A stretch of 64,000 nt of DNA, taken from NCBI RefSeq assembly GCF_900167435.1, contig NZ_FUWS01000002.1:235924-299923 (forward strand), given 5' to 3'. Both the position numbers and the translations under genes were made by a program. Below, piece by piece: positions 19,741-40,850 of this stretch (positions within the stretch are counted from its first letter, which is position 1; each line of letters opens with the position of its first letter). The stretch comes from Marinactinospora thermotolerans DSM 45154 (GTDB lineage: Bacteria > Actinomycetota > Actinomycetes > Streptosporangiales > Streptosporangiaceae). The notes below the pieces were generated by a model that did no database searches, was not told the DNA's origin, and saw only the letters and a list, made by a program, of their open reading frames with translations.

Positions 19741-21222
<1,482 letters not shown>

Positions 21223-21863
21223 CCCCTTGTCCCGAACCCGATACGCCGCCGGCCTTCCATGGGACGGCGGCGTCGTGGTGTCCGGCCCGCTCCCCAGGAG
21301 CTCGCGGGTCGGCCGCGGCGGAGCACGCCGGGCTCCCCGCTCGGAGACCGCGCGTCCTCGCGCCGGTGACGGTTCCCACGCGCCGCCGGGGCGGCCGTCC
21401 CTCCTCGGCACGGCCGGCCGGATGGTCCTGGCCCGGCCGCCCGCCGCCGGCGGGCGCCTCCTGGGGGACCCCGTCGGGGAGCCCCGGCCGGACGTCCAAG
21501 CGGGGCCGGAAGCGAGCGGGCGACCCCGCCAGACGGTGGAAACGGCCGGACCGATCCGCGGGCTTGGGGAGAGCCCGATCCCCGTCTGGGAACGCTCCCG
21601 GTTCAAGGCGGGCGAATCCGAAAGTAGCCCGGTTCTTCTCTCATGTGCGTCTGTCTCCTGATGCGCCCAATGACCTGGAACTACCTGGTCACCAGGTCGG
21701 GGGAAACAGGTTTTCGGTTCTGGGGACACGGAGACGCTAGGGCGCGGAAGATGACGGTGGGTCACCAGAGTGCGCCGGTGCGTGATGTCGGCGTCGGTGG
21801 CACCCGCCGCGGTAGGCGCCGCGACCCGGCGTCCATCCCCCGACCGCGTACAAGGAGACATCC
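21223..21863. other. Intergenic region between tRNA and the A-T-TE gene
   Basis: About 640 bases with no convincing gene; short open frames on both strands lack ribosome sites and family resemblance. The last 250 bases hold the ACCTGGT-C-ACCAGGT palindrome (21683-21697) and probably the promoter of the biosynthetic operon. Confidence 0.6.
21683..21697. promoter_or_regulatory. Palindromic operator candidate upstream of the A-T-TE gene
   Basis: ACCTGGT and ACCAGGT are perfect 7-bp arms around a single C. Eleven bases of it (TGGTCACCAGG, 21686-21696) recur exactly at 24731-24741, overlapping the start codon of the next gene in the operon. The XRE-cupin regulator encoded at 26236-26865 is a candidate to bind it. 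Confidence 0.5.
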
Positions 21864-24641
21864 GTGAGTACGGCAGCCGACAACACCTCGACCCTGGACA
21901 CCGGCCGGACGACGCCCAGGGAAGCCCGGGCGGAACCGGGCGGACTGGCCGCGCTTCTCACCCGCGCCGCCGCCGAACACCCGGACAAGGGGATCCGCTA
22001 CGGCGACGACGATACCTTCCAGTCCTATCCCGCCCTCCTGCGCCACGCCGGGCGGATCCGCGCCGGCCTGAAGGAACACGGGCTGGACCCGGGCGCGCGG
22101 GTCGTCCTCATCCTCGACCGTCCCGGCGACGTCCTCCCGGCCTTCTGGGGGTGCGTGCTCGGCGGCTACGTCCCCTGCCCCATGGCCCCCTCGCGCGGCG
22201 ACGCCGACCGCTGGCTGCGGCGTCTCCGCCACGCCGCCGCCCTGCTGGAGGGGCCGCTGATCGTCACCACCGACGACGTGCGGCGCGAACTGTCCGAGGA
22301 GGACGGGTTGCGCGTCACCACCCCGCGCGACCTCGCCGCCGGCGAGGACGCCACCGCCCCGCCCCATCCGGCGGCCCCCGACGACCTCGCGCTGCTGATG
22401 CTCACCTCGGGCTCCTCGGGCAACGGCAAGGCGGTCGAGCTGACCCACGCCAACCTGCTGGCCGCGCTCGCCGGCAAGGCCGAGGCGCTGGGCTGCGGCC
22501 CCGGTGACACCATGCTGAACTGGATCGCCTTCGATCACGTGGCCGCCGTCGAGGGCCACCTGCTGCCGTTGTCCACCGGCGGCGCCCAGGTCCAGGTCTC
22601 CCCGCGGACCGTCCTCGGCGACGTGACGAACTTCCTGCGCCTCGTCGACACCCACCGCGTCACCCTGACCTTCGCCCCCAACTTCCTGTTCGGCGAGCTC
22701 AACAAGGTCACCGACGCCGCGTCCGACCTCGACCTGTCCTGCCTGCGTCATCTGATCTCCGGCGGTGAGGCGGTGGTGCGGGCGACCGCGCTGGAGTTCC
22801 TGGACCGGCTGGCCGGCCATGGGCTGCGCCGGAACGCGATCGTGCCGGCGTTCGGGATGACCGAGACCTGTGCGGGCAGCGTGTTCTCCCTCGGTTTCCC
22901 CGGGGACGACGACGGACGGGAGTTCGCCTCCCTCGGCCGGGGCGTGCGCGGCCTGCGCATGCGCATCGTCGACGAGCGCGGGATGCCGGTGCCCGACGGC
23001 CAGGAGGGCGAGCTGCAACTACGCGGCCCGATGGTGACCCGCGGCTATCTCAACGATCCCGGCTCCACCGCCGCCGCGTTCACCGACGACGGCTGGTTCC
23101 GTACCGGCGACCGCGGCAGCCTCACCGCCGAGGGCCTGCGGCTGGCCGGCCGCATCAAGGACAGCATCATCGTCAACGGCGTCAACCACTTCAGCCGCGA
23201 GGTCGAGGCCGCGCTGGAGGAGCTGCCGGAGGTCGCCGACGGCTCCGTCGCCGCCTTCCCCGTCCGGCCGCCGGGCAGCGACACCGAACAGCTCGTCATC
23301 GTGTTCACGCCGACCTTCCCCCCGGAGGACGAGGCGACGCTGCACCGCACCCTGGTCGCCATCCGGACCGGGGTGGTGCTGCTGTGGGGGTTCCGCCCCT
23401 CGCTGATCCTCCCGTTGGACGCCGCCGACATCCCCAAGACCAGCCTCGGCAAGATCCCCCGCGCCCTCCTGCGCGAGCGGCTGGAGTCCGGGGCGTTCGC
23501 CGCCCAGGAGAAGCGGGTCGCCCGGCTCACCGAGCGCATGCTCGGCGGCTACGAGCCCGCGCGCGGCACGACCGAACGCATGCTGGTCGGCATCTACGCG
23601 GAGCTGTTCGGCCTGCCCGCCGACCGCGTCAGCGTCACCGCGGGCTTCTTCGACCTGGGCGGCACCTCCATCGACATCCTCCGGCTCAAACAGCGGGTGC
23701 AACGGGCCTTCGGCATCGACGACCTGCCGGTCGCCGCCCTGCTGTCGGCTCCGAGCGTCCACGCGCTGGCCAGCGTCCTCGACGGGCACGGCGAGACCGG
23801 CGGGGAGTACGACCCCTTGGTGACCCTCCAGCACAGCGGCGAGCGCACCCCGTTGTTCTGCGTCCACCCCGGTGTGGGCGAGGTGCTGGTCTTCATCAAC
23901 CTCGCCTCCTACTTCACCGGTGAGCGTCCCTTCCACGCCCTGCGGGCGCGCGGCTTCGCGCCCGGCGAGTCCTACTTCACCGACTTCGCCGAGATGGTCG
24001 ACTGCTACGTGCGGGCGATCCGCCGCAAGCAGCCGCACGGGCCCTACGCGGTCGCCGGGTACTCCTACGGGGGCGCGGTGGCCTTTGAGGTCGCCAAGGC
24101 GTTGGAGGCCCTGGGGGAACGTGTCGACTTCGTCGGGATCTTCAACCTGCCGCCCTACATCGCCTCGCGCATGGCCGAGCTCAACTACACCGAGGGTGCC
24201 GTCCACCTGGCGCTCTTCCTCGACCTGATCCGGCAGGAGGAGGAGCACGACCTCATCGAACGCATCCGCGACCTCCCCCGGGGCGAGCAGGTCGACCACA
24301 TCATGCGGGCCGCCGCCCCGCTTCGCCTGGCCGAGCTCGGCATCGACCGTGACGGGTTCGCCTCCTGGGTGGACCTCGCCCAGTCCCTGGTGCGGGTGGG
24401 CCGCTCCTACGAGCCCAGCGGCAGCGTCGCGTCGGTCAGCGTGTTCTACGCGATCCCCCTGCGCGGCACCAAGCAGGAGTGGCTCGACAAGGAGCTGCGC
24501 AGGTGGGACGAGTTCACCCGTGGCGAGAACCGCTACATCGACGTGCCCGGACAGCACTACACGCTCATGAGCCCCGCCCACGTCGGGGCGTTCCAGGAGA
24601 TCCTGCGCGCCGAACTCGACCGGGCGCTGGGCGGCGCCTGA
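21864..24641 (+). CDS. NRPS-like A-T-TE synthetase, aryl-pyruvate quinone/furanone type
   Basis: The 925-residue enzyme has three domains and no condensation domain. An adenylation domain (about 30-545) has LTSGSSGNGKAVELTH, AFGMTET, WFRTGDRG and the catalytic Lys in PKTSLGKIPR. A carrier domain has DLGGTSIDIL (phosphopantetheine Ser602). A thioesterase domain (about 655-915) has Ser734 in GYSYGGA and His898 in PGQHYTL. The A-domain stretch LNWIAFDHVAAVEGH resembles the aryl-2-oxo-acid-activating enzymes that make polyporic acid, atromentin, terrequinone and ralfuranone precursors (EchA, AtrA, TdiA, RalA). These dimerise phenyl-, hydroxyphenyl- or indole-pyruvate on the TE. Where many TEs carry the triad Asp there is FNLPP, with Asn. 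The adjacent NTF2-methyltransferase fusion supports a terphenyl-like product. The exact substrate is not determined. Confidence 0.85.
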   Translation: MSTAADNTSTLDTGRTTPREARAEPGGLAALLTRAAAEHPDKGIRYGDDDTFQSYPALLRHAGRIRAGLKEHGLDPGARVVLILDRPGDVLPAFWGCVLGGYVPCPMAPSRGDADRWLRRLRHAAALLEGPLIVTTDDVRRELSEEDGLRVTTPRDLAAGEDATAPPHPAAPDDLALLMLTSGSSGNGKAVELTHANLLAALAGKAEALGCGPGDTMLNWIAFDHVAAVEGHLLPLSTGGAQVQVSPRTVLGDVTNFLRLVDTHRVTLTFAPNFLFGELNKVTDAASDLDLSCLRHLISGGEAVVRATALEFLDRLAGHGLRRNAIVPAFGMTETCAGSVFSLGFPGDDDGREFASLGRGVRGLRMRIVDERGMPVPDGQEGELQLRGPMVTRGYLNDPGSTAAAFTDDGWFRTGDRGSLTAEGLRLAGRIKDSIIVNGVNHFSREVEAALEELPEVADGSVAAFPVRPPGSDTEQLVIVFTPTFPPEDEATLHRTLVAIRTGVVLLWGFRPSLILPLDAADIPKTSLGKIPRALLRERLESGAFAAQEKRVARLTERMLGGYEPARGTTERMLVGIYAELFGLPADRVSVTAGFFDLGGTSIDILRLKQRVQRAFGIDDLPVAALLSAPSVHALASVLDGHGETGGEYDPLVTLQHSGERTPLFCVHPGVGEVLVFINLASYFTGERPFHALRARGFAPGESYFTDFAEMVDCYVRAIRRKQPHGPYAVAGYSYGGAVAFEVAKALEALGERVDFVGIFNLPPYIASRMAELNYTEGAVHLALFLDLIRQEEEHDLIERIRDLPRGEQVDHIMRAAAPLRLAELGIDRDGFASWVDLAQSLVRVGRSYEPSGSVASVSVFYAIPLRGTKQEWLDKELRRWDEFTRGENRYIDVPGQHYTLMSPAHVGAFQEILRAELDRALGGA

Positions 24642-24729: not shown

Positions 24730-26115
24730 TTGGTCACCAGGGAAGCACTCATCCGCGGCCACTACGCCGCGCTGGAACGCGGCGACATCGACGCCGCGCT
24801 GTCCGTCCTCGACCCCGGGGTGCGGTGGAGCCGCCCCGCGGGGCCGGACGCCCACGGACCCGGCACGATCCTGACCGGGCACGACGAGGTCAGGGCCGCC
24901 CTGGAGCGGGGCCGGTCCCTGTTCGGCGAGGACAGGTTCGAGCCGCGCGAGTTCGTCGGCTCCGACGACCGGATCGTCGTCCTCGGCGTCCGCCGCCTGC
25001 GCGGGGCGCGTGGTGGCGGCGCCGAGGCGCCGTCCGCGCACTACTGGCACTTCGCCGGCGACCGCGCCATCCGCGTCGACGACGTCCACGACAGCGCGCC
25101 CGTCCGCGAGCTGTTCGCCCGTGACCGGGGCGACCACGTCTGGCCTCTCGGCATCGCCTACATGAAGTCCCGGACGCTGTACTCCGCGGTCGAGCTCGGC
25201 GTCTTCACCGCGCTCGCGAACGGTCCCGTGCAGGGTGAGGAGCTGCGGCAACGGCTGGGTCTGGACCCGCGTGGCGCCAGGGACTTCTTCGACGCCCTGG
25301 TGGCGCTGGGCCTGTTGGAACGGGGCGAGGACGGCTACGCCAACACGGTGGCCACCTCGACCCTTCTCGCCGACCCCGAGTCCGACACCTACATCGGCGG
25401 TCTGATGGAGTACACGGCGACCCAGTGGTACTGGTCGTGGGGCAGGCTCACCGACACCCTGCGCAGTGGCCGCTCGCACACCTACGGCGACACCGACCCC
25501 TTCGAGGCCATCTACGGTGACCCGGACCTCGCCGAACGGTTTCGGCGGGCCATGGCCGGAGGCGCGGTCCGCGCCGTCATGGCGCTTCCCGACGCCTTCC
25601 CGTGGAAGCGCTACCGGACGGTCGCCGACATCGGCTGTTCGGACGGCCCGGTGCTGGCGCGTCTGCTGCGCACCCATCCGCACCTGACCGGGGTCGGCTT
25701 CGACCTCCCCCCGGTCGAGGCCGCCTTCCAGCGCACCGTCGAACGGCACGGGCTCGGGGACCGCATGAGCTTCGCCGCGGGTGACTTCCGCACCGGGGGG
25801 CTTCCCCGGGTGGACGCCCTCATCTTCGGGCACGTCCTGCTCGACTGGGACGTCGAGACGCGGCGCATGCTCCTGGCCAAGGCCTATGAGGCGCTGCCCG
25901 ACGGAGGGGCGGTGCTCATCTACGACATGATGATCGACGAGGAGCGCACCGACCTCGCGGGGCTGCTGTTCAAGCTGCACATGCTGATCGACTATCCGGG
26001 CGGGGGCACCTACACGGCCCGGGAGTGCTTCGACTGGCTGGCCGAGGCCGGGTTCCGCGACCTCCGCTCGCAGTCGCTCGCCGGTCCCGACCGGCTCGTG
26101 ATCGCGATCAAGTGA
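24730..26115 (+). CDS. NTF2/SnoaL-like domain fused to an S-adenosylmethionine O-methyltransferase
   Basis: The 461-residue protein joins two folds. Residues 1-130 (REALIRGHYAALERGDIDAA, then HYWHFAGDRAIRVDDVHD) are a SnoaL/NTF2-like domain. Residues 135-235 are the dimerisation winged helix of plant-COMT-type methyltransferases (LYSAVELGVFTALANG). The rest is the catalytic domain, with SAM motif VADIGCSDGPVLARLL (near 298), VGFDLPPV and catalytic His368 in FGHVLLDWDVETRRMLL. Stand-alone NTF2-like proteins (TerC/EchC) act in bacterial terphenyl pathways as dehydratases after ketone reduction, and terphenyls are then O-methylated. Such a fusion could couple both steps. It starts at TTG 24730 after GAGGGGGC; the start lies within the shared operator-like element. 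A hairpin follows at 26121. Confidence 0.82.
   Translation: MVTREALIRGHYAALERGDIDAALSVLDPGVRWSRPAGPDAHGPGTILTGHDEVRAALERGRSLFGEDRFEPREFVGSDDRIVVLGVRRLRGARGGGAEAPSAHYWHFAGDRAIRVDDVHDSAPVRELFARDRGDHVWPLGIAYMKSRTLYSAVELGVFTALANGPVQGEELRQRLGLDPRGARDFFDALVALGLLERGEDGYANTVATSTLLADPESDTYIGGLMEYTATQWYWSWGRLTDTLRSGRSHTYGDTDPFEAIYGDPDLAERFRRAMAGGAVRAVMALPDAFPWKRYRTVADIGCSDGPVLARLLRTHPHLTGVGFDLPPVEAAFQRTVERHGLGDRMSFAAGDFRTGGLPRVDALIFGHVLLDWDVETRRMLLAKAYEALPDGGAVLIYDMMIDEERTDLAGLLFKLHMLIDYPGGGTYTARECFDWLAEAGFRDLRSQSLAGPDRLVIAIK
24731..24741. promoter_or_regulatory. Second copy of the TGGTCACCAGG element, on a start codon
   Basis: The 11-mer TGGTCACCAGG is identical to 21686-21696. It begins at the second base of the TTG start codon of the methyltransferase gene. 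The coding meaning (V-T-R) could be incidental. If it is an operator, binding here would act as a roadblock inside the operon. Confidence 0.35.
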
Positions 26116-26146: not shown

Positions 26147-26235
26147 CAGCCGGACGATCCGGTGCGACGGGGCGGTGACACCTTTCGCCGGTACGGCGGT
26201 CGGTGATGCGCAGGCGTGGGGGAGAGGGAGGGGCC

Positions 26236-26865
26236 GTGCGGTGTGAACGAGACGGTCGGAGGTTGGCGGCCAATCTCCGCATACTTCGCGGGGTGGCGGG
26301 GCTGTCCCTGTCGGAGCTCGCGCGCAGATCGGGGGTGGCCAAGGCGACGCTGTCCCGGTTGGAGTCCGGGGCCGGCAACCCCACCCTCGAAACGGTGTTC
26401 AGCCTGTCCGAGGCGTTGAACGTGCCGATCGCCTCGCTGCTCGCGGACCGGGCGGATCCCGAGATCGTCCTGGTCCGTTCCGCGGACGCCGAGGCCGTCG
26501 GCGACGACGGCGTGGACCTGCGGATCCTGCGCCGGATCGTCCTGCCCACGGGGAGCATCGAGGTCTATGACCAGCGCATCCGGCCGGGAACGAGGCAGTA
26601 CTCCCACGGTCACTCCGGGCGTGAGCACCACATCGTCACCCAGGGGGTGCTGCGCCTGGGCCCGCCCGATGCCCCCTACGAGCTCTACCCGGGCGACTAC
26701 GCCTGCTTCTCGGCCACCCACCCCCACTGCTACGAGGCGGTGGGACGGGAGGAGGTCGTCTCGGTCCTGCTCCTGGACCACACCGGCGAGGGGACGGCGA
26801 GGAACGGTCGCCGGTCGGCGAACGGTGTGGCCGGCCACCACACGTCCAGCGCCCGGCGCAGTTGA
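26236..26865 (+). CDS. XRE-family regulator with C-terminal cupin domain
   Basis: The 209-residue protein has an N-terminal helix-turn-helix (RLAANLRILRGVAGLSLSEL, then SGVAKATLSRLESGAGNPTL) and a C-terminal cupin (RPGTRQYSHGHSGREHHIVT, then YELYPGDYACFSATHPHCYEA). The cupin His residues could bind metal or a small effector. Proteins of this build repress small catabolic, efflux or biosynthetic operons. It lies at the end of the A-T-TE locus and is the natural candidate pathway regulator. The start at GTG 26236 follows GAGGGAGGGG; an ATG at 26206 is an alternative. A strong terminator follows at 26957-26984. Confidence 0.85.
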   Translation: MRCERDGRRLAANLRILRGVAGLSLSELARRSGVAKATLSRLESGAGNPTLETVFSLSEALNVPIASLLADRADPEIVLVRSADAEAVGDDGVDLRILRRIVLPTGSIEVYDQRIRPGTRQYSHGHSGREHHIVTQGVLRLGPPDAPYELYPGDYACFSATHPHCYEAVGREEVVSVLLLDHTGEGTARNGRRSANGVAGHHTSSARRS

Positions 26866-27324
26866 GGGGAGCCCTCGGCAGGGATCCCCCCACCACCGTG
26901 GTCTTCCCGCCCAGCGGAGGGGCGATCACGTCGGGGGACGTAGGGAGAGGGCGAGAGCGGGCCGCGCGCGTGCGCGCGGCCCGCGGGAGACCTCCCGCCC
27001 CGGGGAGCGGCCCGGTGCGGGGAACCGCACGCGGACGACGGGGCGTCCCCGCGGGCCGGGCCGGGGCCTGGTCTAGGATGTGTCGGTCCGGCCAGAGGCG
27101 CGGTGGTCGTCCCGGGCCGTCGGCGCCGCGGTGACCACCGGCCCCGGACGCCGCCCGGTGGAGGCCCGGGCGCGCGGGCGCCCGGCCGATGGCGGCGAGG
27201 CCGCCGTCCGCGCCGCGGACCGGCCCCTCCCCGTGGGGCCCGGCGTCCACCGCCGTTACCGTCCCCGGCTCGGGGGGCGGTGGCCGTGGCGCGGGACGTC
27301 CTCGATCTCCCAGAGGGGCACGCG
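26866..27324. other. Intergenic region upstream of galE
   Basis: About 460 bases with no gene I can support. It contains the terminator at 26957-26984. The second half is very GC-rich and presumably holds the galE promoter. Confidence 0.6.
26957..26984 (+). terminator. Strong GC hairpin terminator
   Basis: A perfect 13-bp stem (GCGGGCCGCGCGC, 26957-26969, with its complement at 26972-26984) closes a minimal GT loop; the true loop is probably one base pair larger. It lies about 90 bp after the XRE-cupin stop. Confidence 0.75.
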
Positions 27325-31631: not shown

Positions 31632-32543
31632 TCACCGGTAGCCGGTGGGGTCGGCGGGCCTGCCCGGGTCCTGCACCTCGACGATGTAGCGCCAGGCGTC
31701 AGGACGGCTGCCGTCGAGGTCGGTGAACCCGTAGACCCGGGCCAGTTCGCCGCTGGACAGCGACGTACCGTTCCACCGCGCCACCGCGGGGTCGGCGGCC
31801 AGGGCCGCCACCGCGCGCCCGGTGAAGCGAGGTGTCTCGGAGATGCAGAAATGCGGCTCCCGGGCGAGCGCGTCCCGCCAGTTCTCCTCGGTTACTCCGT
31901 AGGTGTCCAGCATCAGCTCCGAACGCATCCATCCCGGTGTCAGCGCCACCGCGGTGGCGCCTCTGGGGCCCAGCTCGCGGCCGAGGGCGAAGGCCATGCG
32001 CAGCACGGCCGTCTTGACGAGGTCGTAGAAGAAGGAGAGCCGGTAGGTGCCGCTGTTGTAGTCGGCGGTTCCGTCGGTGACCTCCACGACCAGGCCGCCG
32101 GGGGTGCGTAGCAGGAGGGGCAGGGCGTGGTGGGAGGTGATGGCGTGGGTGTCCACGCCCAGGCGGAGTATCCGCAGCCCCTTGTCGAGGTCGTGTTCCC
32201 AGACCGGGACGTCCCACTCGGTGAGGAGTTCGCCGCCCCAGATGTCGTTGACCAGTAGGTCCAGCCGTCCCTGTTCGGCGTCGATGCGCTTCACCAGGGC
32301 GCGGACCTGCTCGGGGACAAGGTGGTCGGTGGGCACCGCGATGCCTTGGCCGCCCGCCGCGGTGACCAGTTCCGCGGTCTCCTCGATGGTCTCGGGCCGG
32401 TCATACTCGGAGCGCCGTTCCCGCGTGGTGCGCCCGGTCACGTAGACGGTCGCCCCCGCCGCGCCGAGTTCGACCGCGATGCCCCGGCCTGCCCCGCGCG
32501 TGGCCCCCGCGACCAGCGCGACCTTTCCATCCAATGCCACCAT
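31632..32543 (-). CDS. Short-chain dehydrogenase/reductase
   Basis: The 303-residue SDR has NAD(P)-binding ALVAGATRGAGRGIAVELG with VTGRTTRERRSEYDRPET following. The DLLVNDIWGGE segment stands in place of the classical NNAG. The Tyr of the YxxxK-like region YRLSFFYDLVKTAVLRMAF suggests an active-site YDLVK. The protein closely fits the DHRS1-like bacterial SDR group of unknown substrate. The start at 32543 follows GGAAGAG. It could in principle be the ketoreductase needed in terphenyl assembly, but it is 5.5 kb from the A-T-TE operon and faces the other way. It has its own operator-like palindrome at 32610-32630. Confidence 0.85.
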   Translation of the reverse strand: MVALDGKVALVAGATRGAGRGIAVELGAAGATVYVTGRTTRERRSEYDRPETIEETAELVTAAGGQGIAVPTDHLVPEQVRALVKRIDAEQGRLDLLVNDIWGGELLTEWDVPVWEHDLDKGLRILRLGVDTHAITSHHALPLLLRTPGGLVVEVTDGTADYNSGTYRLSFFYDLVKTAVLRMAFALGRELGPRGATAVALTPGWMRSELMLDTYGVTEENWRDALAREPHFCISETPRFTGRAVAALAADPAVARWNGTSLSSGELARVYGFTDLDGSRPDAWRYIVEVQDPGRPADPTGYR

Positions 32544-33419: not shown

Positions 33420-34259
33420 ATGAAAAGCGCGTGGACCGATTCGTTCTCCTGGCAGGAGATCGAATCGACGTACGACCATCTCTCGGTACTCGTGGAAGAG
33501 ACCGCCGGACCCGACCGGCACTACGGGTACTGGGAAGGCGACGACGACAGCGCCTCCATCGAGGAGGCCACCGAACGGATGACCGACCTCGTCGCCTCCC
33601 GGCTGGGAATCCGGCACGGCTCCCGGGTCCTGGACGTGGGGTGCGGCAACGGCCGACCGGCCGTGCGCATCGCCAAGACGTTGGGCGCCGAGGTCGTGGC
33701 GGTCGATGTGGACCGGCGGGCCCTGCGCAACGGCACCGATCACGCCCGCGAACAGGGCGTCGCCGGCATGGTCCGGTTCGAATGGGCCGACGCCCTCGAC
33801 CTGCCCTACGCGCCGGCCTCCTTCGACGCCGTGCTGCTGTTCGAGACCACCCCCCACTTCCACATCCGCGACCTCTACCGCGAGGCCGCCCGGATGCTCC
33901 GCCCGGGGGGACGCCTCGTCGTCGAGACGCCCTACCCGCGTGTCCCGCTGACCGACGAGGTGCGCGACCGCATCGGTCCCTATCTGACCATGCTCAAGGC
34001 GGTCGCCTTCGACGCCCCCGACGAGCATGTCGCGGCCGCGGGGGAGGCGGGCCTGGCCGTCGAGGAGGTCACCGACATCACCGCCAACACCCGAGACTCC
34101 TTCCGTCGGCTCGTGCGCGGTCTGCGGGAGAACAGGGAGCGCCTCGAAACCGAATGGGGCTCCTCCGACGCCCGCCTCCTGCTGGACGGATTCGGCGCGT
34201 GGGCCGAGGCCGACGAGGTGGGCGCGGTCGTCATGGTCTTCACCCGAACGGAGGGCTGA
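33420..34259 (+). CDS. SAM-dependent methyltransferase (class I, natural-product type)
   Basis: The 279-residue methyltransferase has SAM motif I VLDVGCGNGRPAVRIAK, motif II VVAVDVDRRAL and post-motif ADALDLPYAPASFDAVLLFE. The N-terminal YDHLSVLVEETAGPDRHYGYW resembles gamma-tocopherol/sugar and polyketide O- or C-methyltransferases. It is first in the operon that continues with the A-PCP and PKS genes. It probably methylates the assembled product or a precursor; the acceptor atom is unknown. An AT-rich leader with a probable promoter precedes it. Confidence 0.87.
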   Translation: MKSAWTDSFSWQEIESTYDHLSVLVEETAGPDRHYGYWEGDDDSASIEEATERMTDLVASRLGIRHGSRVLDVGCGNGRPAVRIAKTLGAEVVAVDVDRRALRNGTDHAREQGVAGMVRFEWADALDLPYAPASFDAVLLFETTPHFHIRDLYREAARMLRPGGRLVVETPYPRVPLTDEVRDRIGPYLTMLKAVAFDAPDEHVAAAGEAGLAVEEVTDITANTRDSFRRLVRGLRENRERLETEWGSSDARLLLDGFGAWAEADEVGAVVMVFTRTEG

Positions 34260-34260
34260 C

Positions 34261-34566
34261 GTGACCGTCGACGCCGATGTGACAGTCCCCGGGATCGGCG
34301 CGCTCGGCCCCGGGAACGGGTCGGCCCGCGCGGAGGCGGGCCCGGGCCTGAAGGGGCGCGGCGGGCACACCCGCGATCAGGGCCCCCCGGCCACGCACCT
34401 TGGCGGCCTGGGTCTCCTGGACGAGGCCGCCGCCCGGGCCGGCACCGGCCGCTCGACGGCGCGGGGGCACGTTCAGCGGGAGGCGAGGGCCGGACACCGG
34501 CGCGAGCATGCCACGGTCCTCACCGGGCGGTCCGGCGAGCGACACGCGACCGGCCACGACCGCTGA
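34261..34566 (+). CDS. Possible small ORF in the NRPS-PKS operon (hypothetical)
   Basis: A 101-codon GTG-started frame begins one base after the methyltransferase stop. It has GGAGGG six bases upstream and ends nine bases before the A-PCP start. Third codon positions are strongly G/C, as in real genes here. The product (MTVDADVTVPGIGALGPGNG at the start) is Gly/Ala/Arg/His-rich with no recognisable domain. It could be a genuine small protein, or simply a 300-bp spacer. A minus-strand frame also passes through it. Confidence 0.4.
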   Translation: MTVDADVTVPGIGALGPGNGSARAEAGPGLKGRGGHTRDQGPPATHLGGLGLLDEAAARAGTGRSTARGHVQREARAGHRREHATVLTGRSGERHATGHDR

Positions 34567-34575
34567 GGGGGGAAC

Positions 34576-36444
34576 GTGTTCGCTTGTCAAGGAGAGGTGG
34601 CCACGGCGGAGAGGCTCTTCGGGGCGTGGGCCGCCGCCGTCCCCGAGCGTCTCGCCCTGGTGGACTCCCGGGGACGGATGTCCTACGCCGAACTCGACGC
34701 CCTGTCCACGGCCCTGGCCGGGGAGCTGGTCCTGGCCGGTGTCGTCCCAGGTGACCGGGTCGGCATCTTCATGGACCGGTCCTTCCTGCTGCCCGCCACC
34801 GTCCTGGCCGTGTGGAAGGCGGGAGCGGCCTACGTTCCGCTCCCCCCGGCACAGCCCACCGCCCGCACCGCGTTGGTGCTGGCCGACACGGCTCCACGGG
34901 TCGTGGCCGCCGACCGCGACCCGGCGGGCGGGCTGGGAGAGGGGGCCCCGCCCCTGCTGAGATTCGACGGCGTCGACGTCTGCGACGGGCCTGGCCCGGC
35001 CGGCCCGGCACCGGCCACGGGCGCGGGCGACCTCGCCTATGTGCTCTACACCTCCGGGTCGACCGGCACCCCTAAAGGGGTCATGGTGGAGCACGGCGGC
35101 GTGGTCAACCTCGCCGAGGGACTCCGGGAGCTGTTCGGTGACCTCGAAGGGGCCCGGGTCCTTCAGTTCGCCCCCTTCACCTTCGATGTGTGGGTCTGGG
35201 AGCTGGCGATGAGCCTGCTCAACGGCGGCACCCTGTGCATCCCCCCGGCAGGGGCGCAGCTCCACGGCCTCGAACTCGCCCGCTTCCTGCGTGAACTGCG
35301 TGTCAGCCATCTGTCGGCGGCCCCGTCGCTGTTGGCGACCCTGCCCATCGAGCCCGACCTCCCGCTCACCACGTTGACCTCGGGGGGCGAGCCCCTGCCC
35401 GGTTTCCTGGTCGAGAGATGGGCCCCCCGGTTACGGCTGTTCAACGCCTACGGCCCCACCGAGGCCACCGTGTCGGCCACCGCGGGACGCTGCCACCGAG
35501 GTCAGACGAGGCCCTCCATCGGCCGTCCGCTCACCGGTGTCGAGGTGCACCTGCTCGACGCGGCCGGACGGCCCGTGGAGCGGGGACGGACCGGGGAGCT
35601 GTGTATCGGGGGACGCGGAGTGGCGCGGGGTTACCTCAACCGCCCCGATCTGACCCGGGAGCGTTTCGTCCCCGACCCCTTCTCCGGACGCGCCGGAGCG
35701 CGCCTCTACCGGACCGGTGACCTCGCCCGGTACCTCCCCGAAGGCGACATCGAATTCGCCGGCCGTATCGACGACCAGCTCAACCTGCGGGGCTACCGGA
35801 TCGAGCCGGGAGAGGTCGAGGCGGCCCTGCTCCGCTACCCGGGAGTCACCGGTGCCGCGGTGACGGTGACCGGACTGCGGCCCGAGTCCCGGCGCCTGAC
35901 CGCCTATCTCCAGTTCGCCGAAGGGCGCAGGGAGCCGGTCGCCCGGGTGCGCGGCCACCTCTCGGCGCTGTTACCGGCCCACCTGGTCCCGTCGCTGTTC
36001 GTCGTCGTGGACCGGCTGCCGCTCAACGCCCACGGAAAGGTCGACCGGGCCGCCCTGCCGGATCCGGGCCGGGAACGGCCCGAGACCGGCACCCACTACA
36101 CGCCTCCCGAGGGCGAACGCGAACGCGAGGTGGCCGAGCTGCTGGAGCAGATCCTCGGCATCGACGGCATCGGGGCCGACGACGAGTTCTTCGCCCTGGG
36201 AGGGACGTCGGCCGACCTCATCGAACTCCAGGCGCGGGTCCAGGAACAGTGGGGGATCAGGGTCCCCGCCGCCGAGCTCGTCGCCGCACGCACCGTGCGG
36301 ATGCTGGCGGAGCTGCTGGACACGGCTCCTGGCGATCACGACCGGCCGCTCCCCAAGGCCGGCCCGGCGCCCGCGCACGCGGACGACCTGCTCGCCGGCA
36401 GCCGGACGCTACGGGAGCGCCTACGGAAAGGACGACAGGGGTGA
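34576..36444 (+). CDS. Stand-alone NRPS adenylation-PCP didomain protein
   Basis: The 622-residue protein has an adenylation domain with A3 YVLYTSGSTGTPKGVMVEHG, A5 NAYGPTEATV, A7 YRTGDLARYL, A8 GRIDDQLNLRGYRIEPGEVE and A10 NAHGKVDRAAL. A PCP follows (FFALGGTSADLIEL, Ser545). There is no condensation or TE domain. By manual alignment to GrsA the ten-residue specificity code reads D-V-W-S-T-G-A-V-S-K. The Asp235 equivalent is present, so an alpha-amino acid is expected, but I do not recognise the code. The GTG start at 34576 is near AGGGGGG. Its TGA overlaps the GTG of the PKS (GTGA), so the two are translationally coupled. It is the likely loading module for the PKS. Confidence 0.88.
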   Translation: MFACQGEVATAERLFGAWAAAVPERLALVDSRGRMSYAELDALSTALAGELVLAGVVPGDRVGIFMDRSFLLPATVLAVWKAGAAYVPLPPAQPTARTALVLADTAPRVVAADRDPAGGLGEGAPPLLRFDGVDVCDGPGPAGPAPATGAGDLAYVLYTSGSTGTPKGVMVEHGGVVNLAEGLRELFGDLEGARVLQFAPFTFDVWVWELAMSLLNGGTLCIPPAGAQLHGLELARFLRELRVSHLSAAPSLLATLPIEPDLPLTTLTSGGEPLPGFLVERWAPRLRLFNAYGPTEATVSATAGRCHRGQTRPSIGRPLTGVEVHLLDAAGRPVERGRTGELCIGGRGVARGYLNRPDLTRERFVPDPFSGRAGARLYRTGDLARYLPEGDIEFAGRIDDQLNLRGYRIEPGEVEAALLRYPGVTGAAVTVTGLRPESRRLTAYLQFAEGRREPVARVRGHLSALLPAHLVPSLFVVVDRLPLNAHGKVDRAALPDPGRERPETGTHYTPPEGEREREVAELLEQILGIDGIGADDEFFALGGTSADLIELQARVQEQWGIRVPAAELVAARTVRMLAELLDTAPGDHDRPLPKAGPAPAHADDLLAGSRTLRERLRKGRQG

Positions 36445-39400
36445 AGGTGGAGAACGTGGACACTACAGCGGACGCGCGTGGGCGCGAGGTCTCGGAGACC
36501 GACATCGCCGTTGTCGGCATCGCCTGCCGCTTCCCGGGTGCCCACGGCCCGCGACAGTACTGGGAGCTCATCTCCGAGGGGCGCCTGGGGATCGGCGAGC
36601 TCACCCCCGACGAGGTGCGGCGGGCGGGGGGAGGGGAGGAGCGGCTGGCCGACCCGGCCCTGGTACGCGCCGCCGGCGTCCTGCGCGACGCCGACCGGTT
36701 CGACTCCGCCTTCTTCGGCTACTCGGGGCGCGAAGCCGCTCTCATGGACCCGCAGCAGCGGATGTTCCTGGAGGAGGCCTGGCACGCGCTGGAGGACGCG
36801 GGACACGACCCCGGCCGTTTCGACGGCGCGATCGGGGTCTATGCGGGGCAGAGCCTGGGCACCCACCGGGAACGCGACTTCGGCTCCTTCCTCGGCACCT
36901 CGGGCGACCTCCTCTCGGCGGCGGACGACAAGGACTTCCTGCCCACCCGGGTCTCCTACAAGCTGGGACTGACCGGCCCCAGTGTCGCCGTCCAGGCGGC
37001 CTGTTCGACCGCGCTCGTGGCGATCCACCTGGCCTGCCGGGCGCTGATCACCTTCGACTGCGACATGGCGCTGGCCGGAGGGGTCTCCTGGACGCCGCTG
37101 CGCCGTCAGGGCTACCTCTACCAGGAGGGCGGGGTGTGGTCGGCCGACGGGCACGTCCGCGCCTTCGACGACCGCGCCTCGGGGTTCGTTCCCGCCGACG
37201 GCCTGGGGATCGTCGCGTTGCGCCGCCTGGGCGACGCGCTGGCCGACGGCGACCGCATCTACGCGGTCGTCAAGGGCAGCGCGGTCAACAACGACGGTTC
37301 CGACAAGCCCAGCTACACCGCCCCGGGCGCCGCGGGCCAGCGCGCCGCGGTCACGGCGGCGCTCGCGGTCGCCGACGTCCACCCCGACACCATCGGTTAC
37401 GTGGAGGCGCACGGGACCGCCACCGCGCTGGGCGACGCGGTCGAGGTCGCGGCGCTCACCCAGGCCTACCGGATGGCCGGTGCCTCGCGGACGGGGTACT
37501 GCCGGATCGGGTCGGTGAAGTCCAACATCGGTCACACCGACGCCGCGGCCGGGGTCGCCGGCTTCATCAAGGCCGCGCTCATGGTCCACCACGGCCGCAT
37601 CCCGCCCAGCCCGGTCCTGGAGACGCCCAACCCCCGGATCGACTTCGCCTCCAGCCCCTTCGTCCCGGCTCGGGAGGGCGAGGAGTGGCCGGTGTCGGGG
37701 GCGCCGCGCCGCGTGGCCGTCAGCTCCTTCGGGATCGGCGGCACCAACGCGCACGCGATCGTGGAGGAGCCTCCGCCGCCCCGTCCCACCGCGCCGGCAC
37801 CCCCATGGCAGCCGGTGCTGCTCTCGGCCCGCGACGAGAACGCCCTGACGGCGATGATCGGCGCGTGCGCCGAGGCCCTGGAGGAGACGCCCGACTCGGC
37901 CTTCGCCGATCTGGCCTGGACCCTGGCGACCGGCCGGCGCGAGTTCCCGGTGCGCTACGCCGGGGTGTTCCGGGACCGCCGACACGCCGCGCGGGTCCTC
38001 CGCGAGCACGCCGGGAGCGGGGCGCGCGAGGCGATCCGGCGCGCCTCCCGAGGGGAGCTGGCGTTCGTGTTCCCCGGCGGCGGGTCCCAGTACCCCGGCA
38101 TGGGGCGGGAGCTCTACGGGAGTGAACCGGTGTTCCGCGCGGCCGTGGACGAGTGCCTGCGGTTGCTGCCCGAAGGGGAGATGGCCGAACGGTTGCGCGC
38201 CGCCTGGGCGGGACCCGCTCCCGACCACGCCGACGAGGACCCCCGGTTCGCGCTGCCCGCGGTGTTCATCACCGAGATCGCGTTCACCCGGCTGCTCGCG
38301 TCGCACGGGGTCCGCCCCGACGTCCTTGCCGGTCACAGCCTCGGCGAGTACGCCGCGGCCTGCGCCGCGGGCGTCATGTCCCTGGCCGACGCCCTTTCCG
38401 TGGTGGTCAAGCGCGGGGAGCTGCTGGCCGGCCTGCGCGGCGGGGCGATGCTGGCGGTCACCGCGACGGAGGCCGAGCTGGCCGCCTACCTGGACGACGA
38501 GGTCTGCCTGTCGGCGGTCAACGCCCGGGCCGCCTGCGTGCTCGCCGGCCCGGCCGAACGCATCGCCGAGGTCCGGACCCTGCTGGAGGGCGACGGGCTG
38601 GCCTGCCGTTCCCTGCCGTTGGCGACCGCGGCCCACTCCTCCCTGGTGGACCCGCTGCTCGGCGAGTTCCGGGATTTCCTGCGCGGCGTCGAGCTGCGCC
38701 CACCTACGGTCCGGCTCGTCTCCATGGTGACCGGGGACGAGGACGCCGATGTCGCCGACCCCGAGTACTGGGTCACCCACCTCAGGGCGACGGTGCGCTT
38801 CGACGACGCGCTGTGCCACGTCCTGGCGCGGCAGCCGAGGGCCGTGGTCGAGGTCGGACCGGGAACCACGCTGACCGCGTTGGCCAGGACCCGCGCCGGA
38901 GCCGACGTCGAGCTGCTGTCCACCGGCCGGCACCGCAAGGAGGAGCGGACCGAGCGCGAGGCCCTGCTCCAGGCCCTGGCCGGCCTGTGGCGGGCCGGGG
39001 TGGCGGTGGACCCGGCCACCTTGTGGCCTCGACCGAGGTTGCGCACGCCCGCCGTCCCCTATCCCTTCGCGGGGACCGAGCACCCCCCGCCCGGTCCCGC
39101 CCGGACCGCGCCGGCCACCGTCGCGCGGGAGGCGGACCTGTACGGGGTGTCATGGGTCCGCGCCGTCGAGCCGCCTCCGCCGCCTTCTGCTCCCGGCGGG
39201 CACCGCTGGGTGGTCCTCTCCGATTCCTCCCCGCTCGCCCACGCGCTCGTCGCGGAGCTGGTCGCGCGCGGGGAGGAGCCCGTCGTGGCGGTGCCGGGGA
39301 CGGACTTCGCGCACGACGGTTCGGGCCGCGTGACCCTGGATCCGCGCCGGCGCGAGCACTACCGGATGCTGCGGGACGCTGCCGTCACCGGGACCACGCC

Positions 39401-40850
39401 GTTACGCCTGGTCAGCCTGTGGGCGGGCGCGATCCCGGCGGAGTACCACCGCCCCCTGGGGGAGATCAGCGGGTTGGCCGCGGCGCTCGGCGACGTCCCC
39501 CCGGGAACCGAGGTCTGCCTGGTCACCCGTGGCGCCTTAGAGGTCACCGGGACCGAACGGCTGATCCCCGAAGCGGCCCTCACGCTCGGAGCGTCCGGTC
39601 CACTGGCCTGTGAACTGCCCGACGTGGTGGTCCGCGTCGTCGACCTGGAGCCCGACGACGCCGTGGACCCGCGGCGGCGGGCCGGCGCCCTGCTCGCCGA
39701 GTTCTCCCGCCCGCCCCGCGCGGAACCGGTGGCCTACCGCGCGGACCATCGGTGGCTGCGCCGCTTCGAACCGGTCCCCCCGACCCCCTCCGCGGCCCCG
39801 GTGCTGCGGACCGGCGGGACCTACGTCATCACCGGCGCCACCGGCGGTGTCGGCCTGCGGTTGACCGCTCACCTGGCCACGGTCCACTCCGCGCGGCTGC
39901 TGCTCGTCGGCCGCGGCGCGGTCCGCGCCCTGGAGGAGTGCCGGGACGAGGAGGTCAGGGACGCGCTCGCCCGGCGCCCCGCCGACATCCTGGTCCGGGA
40001 CGCCGACGTCACCGACCACGCCCGGCTCAAAGAGGTTCTCACCGAGGCGCACGTGCGCTTCGGCGCGATCCACGGGGTGCTGCACACCGCGGGCGACCCG
40101 GGAGGGGGGATGGCGGCCCTGCTGTCCGAGGAGGAGATCGACGCCGCCCTCCAGGCGAAGACCGAGGGGACCTCCGTCCTGCTCGCCGCGCTGCGCGACG
40201 TCGGGGCCCACCCCGACTTCGTCCTGCTCTTCTCCTCGCTCGCCTCCTTCTCCGGGGTGCCCGGCCTGTCCTGTTACGCGGCGGCCAACGCCTTCATGGA
40301 CACCTATGCGGCGCGGGCGCGCCGTGAGGGCCTGCCGGTCCTGTCGGTCAACTGGGACCGCTGGAACGGCACCGGTATGGCGCGCACGATGGAGCGGCGG
40401 CACCAGGAGATCGCCGGGGAGGGGCTGGACGGGGGGATGAGCGTCCGGCAGGCGCTCGCGGCTTTCGAACGGTGTCTGGCGGCTCTTCCGCTGGGACAGG
40501 TCGTCGCCGCCACCCGCCTGCCGGAGGTCGGGACGCGGAGGGCCACGCGCGCCCCGCTCCCGGCGCCGGCCGCCGTCGACCCGGACCCTGGGGAGGAGGA
40601 TCTCACGGGGTGGGCGCCGCTGGAGCGGGAGCTCCTCCAGATCTGGCGGGAGGTTCTGGGGGCCGGCGCGCGGATCGACCGCGACGAGGACTTCTTCGAT
40701 TTGGGCGGCGACTCCCTGAGCGCCCTCCAGATCGTCCGATTGTGCCGGAACCGTTTCGGGGCGCAGATCTCGGTGGAGACGCTGTTCGCCGCGCCGACGA
40801 TCACGGATCTGGCCCGACTGCTCGCGGCCGAACAGGGGGCGGACACGTGA
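36441..40850 (+). CDS. Modular type I polyketide synthase, KS-AT-KR-ACP
   Basis: The 1469-residue protein is one extension module. KS: Cys188 in VQAACSTALVAIH, His324 in EAHGTATALGD, His365 in SNIGHTDAAAG. AT: Ser633 in GHSLGEYA and His732 in TAAHSS; the substrate motif is neither classical HAFH nor YASH, and malonyl-CoA is the likeliest extender. KR: GTYVITGATGGVGLRL, then LLFSSLASF and Tyr1279 in SCYAAANAF, complete and active-looking, with no LDD motif. ACP: DLGGDSLSALQ (Ser1425). There are no DH, ER or TE domains. It would extend the aminoacyl unit from the upstream A-PCP by two carbons and reduce the ketone, giving a beta-hydroxy-gamma-amino acyl chain. Starts at GTG 36441, coupled to the previous gene. 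Confidence 0.92.
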   Translation: MKVENVDTTADARGREVSETDIAVVGIACRFPGAHGPRQYWELISEGRLGIGELTPDEVRRAGGGEERLADPALVRAAGVLRDADRFDSAFFGYSGREAALMDPQQRMFLEEAWHALEDAGHDPGRFDGAIGVYAGQSLGTHRERDFGSFLGTSGDLLSAADDKDFLPTRVSYKLGLTGPSVAVQAACSTALVAIHLACRALITFDCDMALAGGVSWTPLRRQGYLYQEGGVWSADGHVRAFDDRASGFVPADGLGIVALRRLGDALADGDRIYAVVKGSAVNNDGSDKPSYTAPGAAGQRAAVTAALAVADVHPDTIGYVEAHGTATALGDAVEVAALTQAYRMAGASRTGYCRIGSVKSNIGHTDAAAGVAGFIKAALMVHHGRIPPSPVLETPNPRIDFASSPFVPAREGEEWPVSGAPRRVAVSSFGIGGTNAHAIVEEPPPPRPTAPAPPWQPVLLSARDENALTAMIGACAEALEETPDSAFADLAWTLATGRREFPVRYAGVFRDRRHAARVLREHAGSGAREAIRRASRGELAFVFPGGGSQYPGMGRELYGSEPVFRAAVDECLRLLPEGEMAERLRAAWAGPAPDHADEDPRFALPAVFITEIAFTRLLASHGVRPDVLAGHSLGEYAAACAAGVMSLADALSVVVKRGELLAGLRGGAMLAVTATEAELAAYLDDEVCLSAVNARAACVLAGPAERIAEVRTLLEGDGLACRSLPLATAAHSSLVDPLLGEFRDFLRGVELRPPTVRLVSMVTGDEDADVADPEYWVTHLRATVRFDDALCHVLARQPRAVVEVGPGTTLTALARTRAGADVELLSTGRHRKEERTEREALLQALAGLWRAGVAVDPATLWPRPRLRTPAVPYPFAGTEHPPPGPARTAPATVAREADLYGVSWVRAVEPPPPPSAPGGHRWVVLSDSSPLAHALVAELVARGEEPVVAVPGTDFAHDGSGRVTLDPRRREHYRMLRDAAVTGTTPLRLVSLWAGAIPAEYHRPLGEISGLAAALGDVPPGTEVCLVTRGALEVTGTERLIPEAALTLGASGPLACELPDVVVRVVDLEPDDAVDPRRRAGALLAEFSRPPRAEPVAYRADHRWLRRFEPVPPTPSAAPVLRTGGTYVITGATGGVGLRLTAHLATVHSARLLLVGRGAVRALEECRDEEVRDALARRPADILVRDADVTDHARLKEVLTEAHVRFGAIHGVLHTAGDPGGGMAALLSEEEIDAALQAKTEGTSVLLAALRDVGAHPDFVLLFSSLASFSGVPGLSCYAAANAFMDTYAARARREGLPVLSVNWDRWNGTGMARTMERRHQEIAGEGLDGGMSVRQALAAFERCLAALPLGQVVAATRLPEVGTRRATRAPLPAPAAVDPDPGEEDLTGWAPLERELLQIWREVLGAGARIDRDEDFFDLGGDSLSALQIVRLCRNRFGAQISVETLFAAPTITDLARLLAAEQGADT

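Follow-up and report, generated by a model that had tools for sequence, protein, structure and literature searches.

The window, a stretch of 64,000 nucleotides from Marinactinospora thermotolerans DSM 45154, carries at 24730–26115 (+ strand) a gene with a TTG start that encodes a 461 aa protein, in which an NTF2/SnoaL-like domain is fused to a COMT-type methyltransferase (OMT). Pfam places SnoaL_2 at residues 8–115 (E = 1.6e-13), Dimerisation at residues 138–214 and Methyltransf_2 at residues 237–443 (E = 8.7e-29), all above the curated cut-offs. The protein is identical over residues 2–461 to PDB chain 22ow_A, which is named only "Methyltransferase"; the exact protein therefore already has a solved structure, and others have expressed the fused frame and worked on it. 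Among the matches listed we found no paper on this fusion or locus, most subscription journals lying outside the literature searched. As originally predicted, the fusion is thus real and its C-terminal part is of the COMT type: this is a two-part enzyme that joins a domain like an aromatising dehydratase to a methyltransferase.

The fusion gene starts 88 bp downstream of the gene for a 925 aa NRPS-like aryl-quinone synthetase of the TerA/EchA kind (21864–24641, +), on the same strand and with similar GC3. The Pfam domains of this synthetase are AMP-binding, PP-binding and Thioesterase with no C domain (A-T-TE), in line with the expected A-T-TE gene directly upstream. Polyporic acid is the in vitro product of DatA and EchA (PMC9379647). 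A promoter and terminator scan gave no promoter-like site and a single terminator-like site, inside the A-T-TE gene on the opposite strand, a yield equal to that of shuffled sequences. Downstream of the fusion by 87 bp lies an XRE/cupin gene (26203–26865, +; HTH_3 and Cupin_2 by Pfam), which we infer is possibly the pathway regulator. On the other side, a tRNA-Met gene (21149–21224) separates malate dehydrogenase from the two-gene operon and may indicate where an insertion took place. A methyltransferase, an A-T protein and a KS-AT-KR-ACP PKS module stand in a row at 33420–40850 (+) and form a small NRPS/PKS locus of their own. Elsewhere in the genome a prenyltransferase matches PDB 4yl7/4yla (849.5 bits over 373 residues), which PMC4786772 assigns to MpnD of M. 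thermotolerans, as expected for that species.

Searching named genomes with an alignment of A-T-TE sequences gave 59 loci, of which one weak match (L096, 24% identity, E = 3e-10) was dropped; among the remaining 58 bacterial loci, L061 spans only 4 kb, and L081 and L082 belong to the same genome. The window A-T-TE has 41–67% identity to these 58. A tree was built from the window sequence, 30 of the 58 loci and two further genomes (33 rows in all, with L084 and L077 left out for stops in the stretch used), and in it the window A-T-TE falls inside a clade of loci lacking TerB (support 100/99), together with Microtetraspora, two Nonomuraea, Thermomonospora and Actinomadura craniellae. No NTF2 or OMT of the fusion kind was found in the loci of these clade mates. 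The thioesterase segment has Asn (xNLPP) in 26 of the 33 rows, among them the window (GIFNLPP) and all 17 TerB-bearing rows; the seven rows with Asp include three Xenorhabdus and a close Enterobacteriaceae MAG. X. szentirmaii is a furanone producer, and the residue pattern speaks against a furanone-type reading of the window A-T-TE.

TerB and candidate reductases

The absence of a TerB-like gene from the operon had been pointed out before, and it extends further: a search of the whole genome, which is in 37 contigs and rated 100% complete, gave no TerB ortholog, the best match having 30% identity (E = 5e-13), and the TerBs of A-T-TE loci share 58–85% identity among themselves. Nor did the genome give a second NTF2 match at E 0.01. 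TerB is present in 37 of the 58 A-T-TE loci (the neighbour called TerB was checked on G021, where it matches the PDB TerB with E = 1e-124). A TerC-type NTF2 domain accompanies 15 of these 37 loci versus none of the 21 TerB-less loci (Fisher p = 4e-4). TerC thus seems dependent on TerB, while the link is one-sided, as the other 22 TerB-bearing loci have no TerC-type NTF2.

An SDR gene at 31632–32543 had also been put forward as a candidate reductase of the pathway. The gene encodes a PRK08303-type protein that occurs in 32 of 60 relatives' genomes, the window genome included (elsewhere at 55–80% identity), and only three of these 32 also have an A-T-TE of the window kind. In G021 some 89 kb separate the SDR from the A-T-TE, and in G080 the A-T-TE occurs where this SDR is missing. 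Being widespread and mostly away from A-T-TE genes, this SDR is unlikely to be part of the pathway, and we rejected it as a substitute for TerB. The GalE gene at 27103 was also discarded as a candidate reductase, since it scores as UDP-glucose 4-epimerase above the cut-off. A reductase unlike TerB could exist in the strain.

Related fusions in other genomes

The TerC-type NTF2 domain is fused to an OMT in seven of the 15 NTF2 loci (L040, L042, L043, L048, L081, L082 and L094); seven others end soon after the domain and L088 looks broken. With further TerB-bearing fusions in G021 and G525, and L081/L082 counted once, eight non-redundant A-T-TE loci carry the fusion directly after TerB. The operons of Allosalinactinospora lopnorensis (L040 = G048), G021 and G525 hold the same fusion as the window next to an A-T-TE (identity to the window protein 50% for G021 and 49% for G048), but TerB stands between A-T-TE and fusion, a second OMT follows, and both the WxHPxG motif of the NTF2 domain and the catalytic His of the OMT are intact. 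In Actinomadura rupiterrae the A-T-TE/TerB/fusion operon occurs twice (L081/L140 and L082/L139, with equal scores), near contig ends and facing opposite ways, a layout like that of terminal inverted repeats. The fusion of Frankia sp. CIT1 (L094 = L109) likewise lies behind A-T-TE and TerB and has a TerC-type domain with an intact motif; its OMT resembles the second OMT in the G021 operon (53% identity) more than it does the window OMT (26%, over a part only), and another OMT of that family lies nearby. Since a different OMT family was joined here, the fusion arose at least twice.

Of 341 genomes of the family that were searched, 23 matched at E 1e-70, and an NTF2 domain fused to an OMT of the window type is present in at least nine of the 23: the window genome, G021, G048, G525, A. 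rupiterrae (G638), G396, G607, G622 and G635. The stretches fetched for the last four (14 kb for G635, whose contig measures 14.5 kb, and 74–98 kb for the others) contain no A-T-TE or TerB ortholog, with adenylation-domain matches of 29–32% and one TerB match of 25%. There the fusion adjoins type I PKS-like, Acetyltransf_2 (amide synthase kind), FAD_binding_3 and FMN_red genes, as called by Pfam for G396 and for FMN_red of G622 and by eye for the others; the G607 fusion gene is near the contig start. A DegT gene of G396 is an AHBA synthase (1b9h, E = 1e-179), and inspection by eye showed similar genes in G607 and G622, the G635 contig being too short to show AHBA genes. These loci (L135/L150 in G396, L138/L154 in G607, L134/L157 in G622 and L136 in G635) look like short PKS clusters of the AHBA type that comprise an adenylation-type loading region, an amide synthase, an FAD monooxygenase, an FMN reductase and the NTF2–OMT fusion. 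Wide occurrence outside aryl-quinone loci, named beforehand as an argument against the original reading, is thus partly borne out: four of 13 non-redundant fusions adjoin PKS-like genes and the rest lie beside an A-T-TE. Action in an AHBA pathway was rejected for the window strain, whose genome has no AHBA synthase ortholog (best match 40%).

It is these four PKS-locus fusions that are nearest to the window in both domains, with support of 96/96 for the NTF2 domain (24 rows, the window row being long) and 100/99 for the OMT (34 rows). Like the window protein, they have lost the His of the NTF2 motif and that of the OMT; unlike it, they have no A-T-TE ortholog in the fetched stretches, have Tyr at the position of RedM Tyr140 and, in two cases, have a shortened NTF2 domain. 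With the A-T-TE in the TerB-less clade and the fusion in the PKS-locus group, the two genes of the window operon would come from different lines.

Conserved positions in the NTF2 and methyltransferase domains

The N-terminal domain (residues 1–128, 24730–25113) matches the NTF2-like protein 3ebt (E = 4.8e-21) and TerC of terfestatin biosynthesis (6d34, E = 1.3e-16) by phmmer. The model of all 461 residues has a mean pLDDT of 73.6 and its fold comparison is dominated by the methyltransferase; for this reason the NTF2 domain was predicted alone, with a mean pLDDT of 89.6. Two solved structures tie as the best match to this separate model, 3ebt (Z 19.0, rmsd 2.3, 130 aligned) and TerC (6wf4, by its title crystallised with polyporic acid; Z 19.0, rmsd 1.9, 128 aligned, 30% identity). 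The NTF2 fold and the TerC kinship of the domain, both anticipated earlier, are borne out by these matches. The window protein differs from TerC in being fused to a methyltransferase and in having Arg for the motif His, with no TerB ortholog found in its genome.

In place of the WxHPxG motif the window has WSRPAG (residues 33–38, 24826–24843), where Arg35 replaces the His. This His is present in all 19 TerB-partnered or TerC-type sequences (17 from the loci, TerC and 3ebt) versus none of the five fusions without TerB, which have Arg in the window, Ala in two and a gap of about 30 residues there in the other two; judged from the alignment, the change counts as the loss of a conserved position. 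Leu44 and Gly46, both invariant in the TerB-bearing set, are Pro and Thr in the window, and the likewise invariant His104, Asp118 and Asp121 are kept. The NTF2 domains share more identity than the OMTs in 15 of 21 TerB-bearing pairs versus none of 10 pairs without TerB (13 of 21 versus none of 10 when only ungapped columns are used). The NTF2 part of the TerB-less fusions thus looks to be under relaxed constraint. Still, a domain that folds well and has been retained must have some use, and that of the window is most likely a non-dehydratase remnant or a binding module.

The methyltransferase part (residues 138–461, 25141–26115) is about 50% identical to RedM (8tji, E = 3e-100), the reductasporine N,N-dimethyltransferase, which is its closest PDB entry after 22ow. 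Both are COMT-type enzymes without the catalytic His; RedM, however, is free of an NTF2 domain, retains Tyr140 and has a pyrrolinium nitrogen as its target (PMC10784701). The catalytic His is present in 26 of the 34 OMT rows and is absent from all five TerB-less fusions. Its place is taken by Leu371 (25840–25842) in the window, Ile in the four PKS-locus relatives, Ser in RedM (Ser253) and one relative, and Cys in L081, which lacks the His even though it has TerB. This His is usual and not obligatory for COMT-type enzymes: according to PMC10784701, several members including DnrK work without it, a Tyr such as Tyr140 of RedM often supplements enzymes that lack it, and the S253A variant of RedM still yields product. 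The four PKS-locus fusions have the substitute Tyr; the window (Phe258, 25501–25503) and L081 have Phe at this position. At the position of RedM Glu310 the window has Thr427 (26008–26010), and six of the seven TerB-bearing fusions of the window OMT type have Asp. The SAM-binding region is kept, with D300-x-G-x-x-x-G, D325 and H368. Taken from these alignments, the window OMT probably still binds SAM and lacks both known bases.

Substrate and role of the fused enzyme

The original prediction saw in the fusion a coupling of aromatisation with trapping by methylation. This fits the eight TerB-bearing relatives, in which TerB directly precedes the fusion and a dehydrate-then-methylate sequence is probably right, but it is not supported for the window protein, with no TerB ortholog found in the genome, Arg35 in place of His and an NTF2 domain that evolves faster than its OMT. 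The phenol that such a sequence presents to the OMT would need a base for methylation. A 2,5-dihydroxybenzoquinone is a strong vinylogous acid and would need none. We propose, as an evenly balanced proposition, that the window OMT methylates the unreduced acidic dihydroxyquinone made by the A-T-TE, the NTF2 domain being a non-dehydratase module. The A-T-TE would join two aryl-pyruvates to a 2,5-diaryl-3,6-dihydroxy-1,4-benzoquinone of the polyporic-acid type, and the fused enzyme would transfer the SAM methyl to the acidic ring hydroxyl or hydroxyls without prior reduction and dehydration. Since the dihydroxyquinone would already be ionised, neither His nor Tyr would be required as a base, and an OMT without a base would fit a pathway without TerB in which the quinone is never reduced. 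The NTF2 domain, descended from a TerC-type dehydratase and probably one no longer, may have been kept as a quinone-binding or structural module. As the window lacks the Tyr that its four relatives have, base-free methyl transfer is an extrapolation.

The same architecture with TerB and both His residues in Allosalinactinospora, G021 and G525, and without all three in the window, makes a natural matched pair. If the window enzyme indeed methylates the unreduced quinone, it would show how a pathway can change its products, with methylated quinones in place of aromatic terphenyls, and how a once catalytic domain turns into a passive module. More broadly and more tentatively, the TerC–methyltransferase fusion may, in one lineage common to a terphenyl-quinone locus and PKS-type loci, have passed from dehydrating and then methylating to a base-free methyltransferase of acidic hydroxyquinones with a dead quinone-binding NTF2 domain or, more remotely, to a SAM-dependent, non-methylating quinone-tailoring enzyme.

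For the window protein itself we consider the non-methylating option unlikely. Here the OMT fold would bind SAM and, without methylating, steer a rearrangement, ring contraction, hydroxylation or pericyclic step on the quinone or an A-T-TE intermediate, like RdmB or LepI/PdxI-type members of the superfamily. Such a role would suit the loss of both known bases, with Leu371 and Phe258 in their places, and of the acidic neighbour, which is Thr427 here; RdmB (aclacinomycin-10-hydroxylase) is among the structural matches, and pericyclases exist in the superfamily (PMC10784701). The retained SAM motif and His368 argue for methyl transfer, as does the activity of DnrK and others without the His and of RedM S253A.

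Distinctly improbable, in our estimate, is a reductase acting in trans, either the 31632 SDR or another, after which the NTF2 domain would dehydrate the product to a terphenyl and the OMT would trap it by methylation. The intact TerC-like fold, the eight non-redundant relatives with TerB followed by the fusion and the independent fusion in Frankia agree with this course; the missing TerB ortholog, the occurrence of the SDR in 32 of 60 genomes with an A-T-TE in only three of those, the lost motif His in a relaxed NTF2 domain and the loss of the OMT base, although a phenol needs deprotonation, all point away from it.

That the fusion acts on a substrate not made by the A-T-TE, as its four closest relatives must, and lies beside that gene by chance is highly doubtful: the neighbours of the nearest fusions are indeed genes of the PKS, amide-synthase, FAD-monooxygenase and FMN-reductase kinds, neither an A-T-TE nor a TerB ortholog lies in the fetched stretches, and the nearest relatives of the window A-T-TE do lack such a partner, but the gap of 88 bp on one strand with similar GC3, the absence of an AHBA synthase ortholog from the genome (best 40%) and the co-occurrence of A-T-TE and fusion in eight other non-redundant loci count against this reading.

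In four of five loci of the TerB-less clade, a sulfotransferase-like gene was seen by eye directly upstream of the A-T-TE (L038:8983–9789, L039:9204–9884, L080:5155–5889 and L092:9277–9990; Sulfotransfer_4 by Pfam in L038 only), which suggests sulfated quinones. Among the 22 TerB-bearing loci with no TerC-type NTF2, the gene after TerB was inspected in two (L060:13774–15741 and L066:13561–15672); it encodes a protein of 655–703 aa with a C-terminal Aminotran_1_2 domain and an N-terminal part that has no Pfam match, and through it the terphenyl pathway may branch towards amines.
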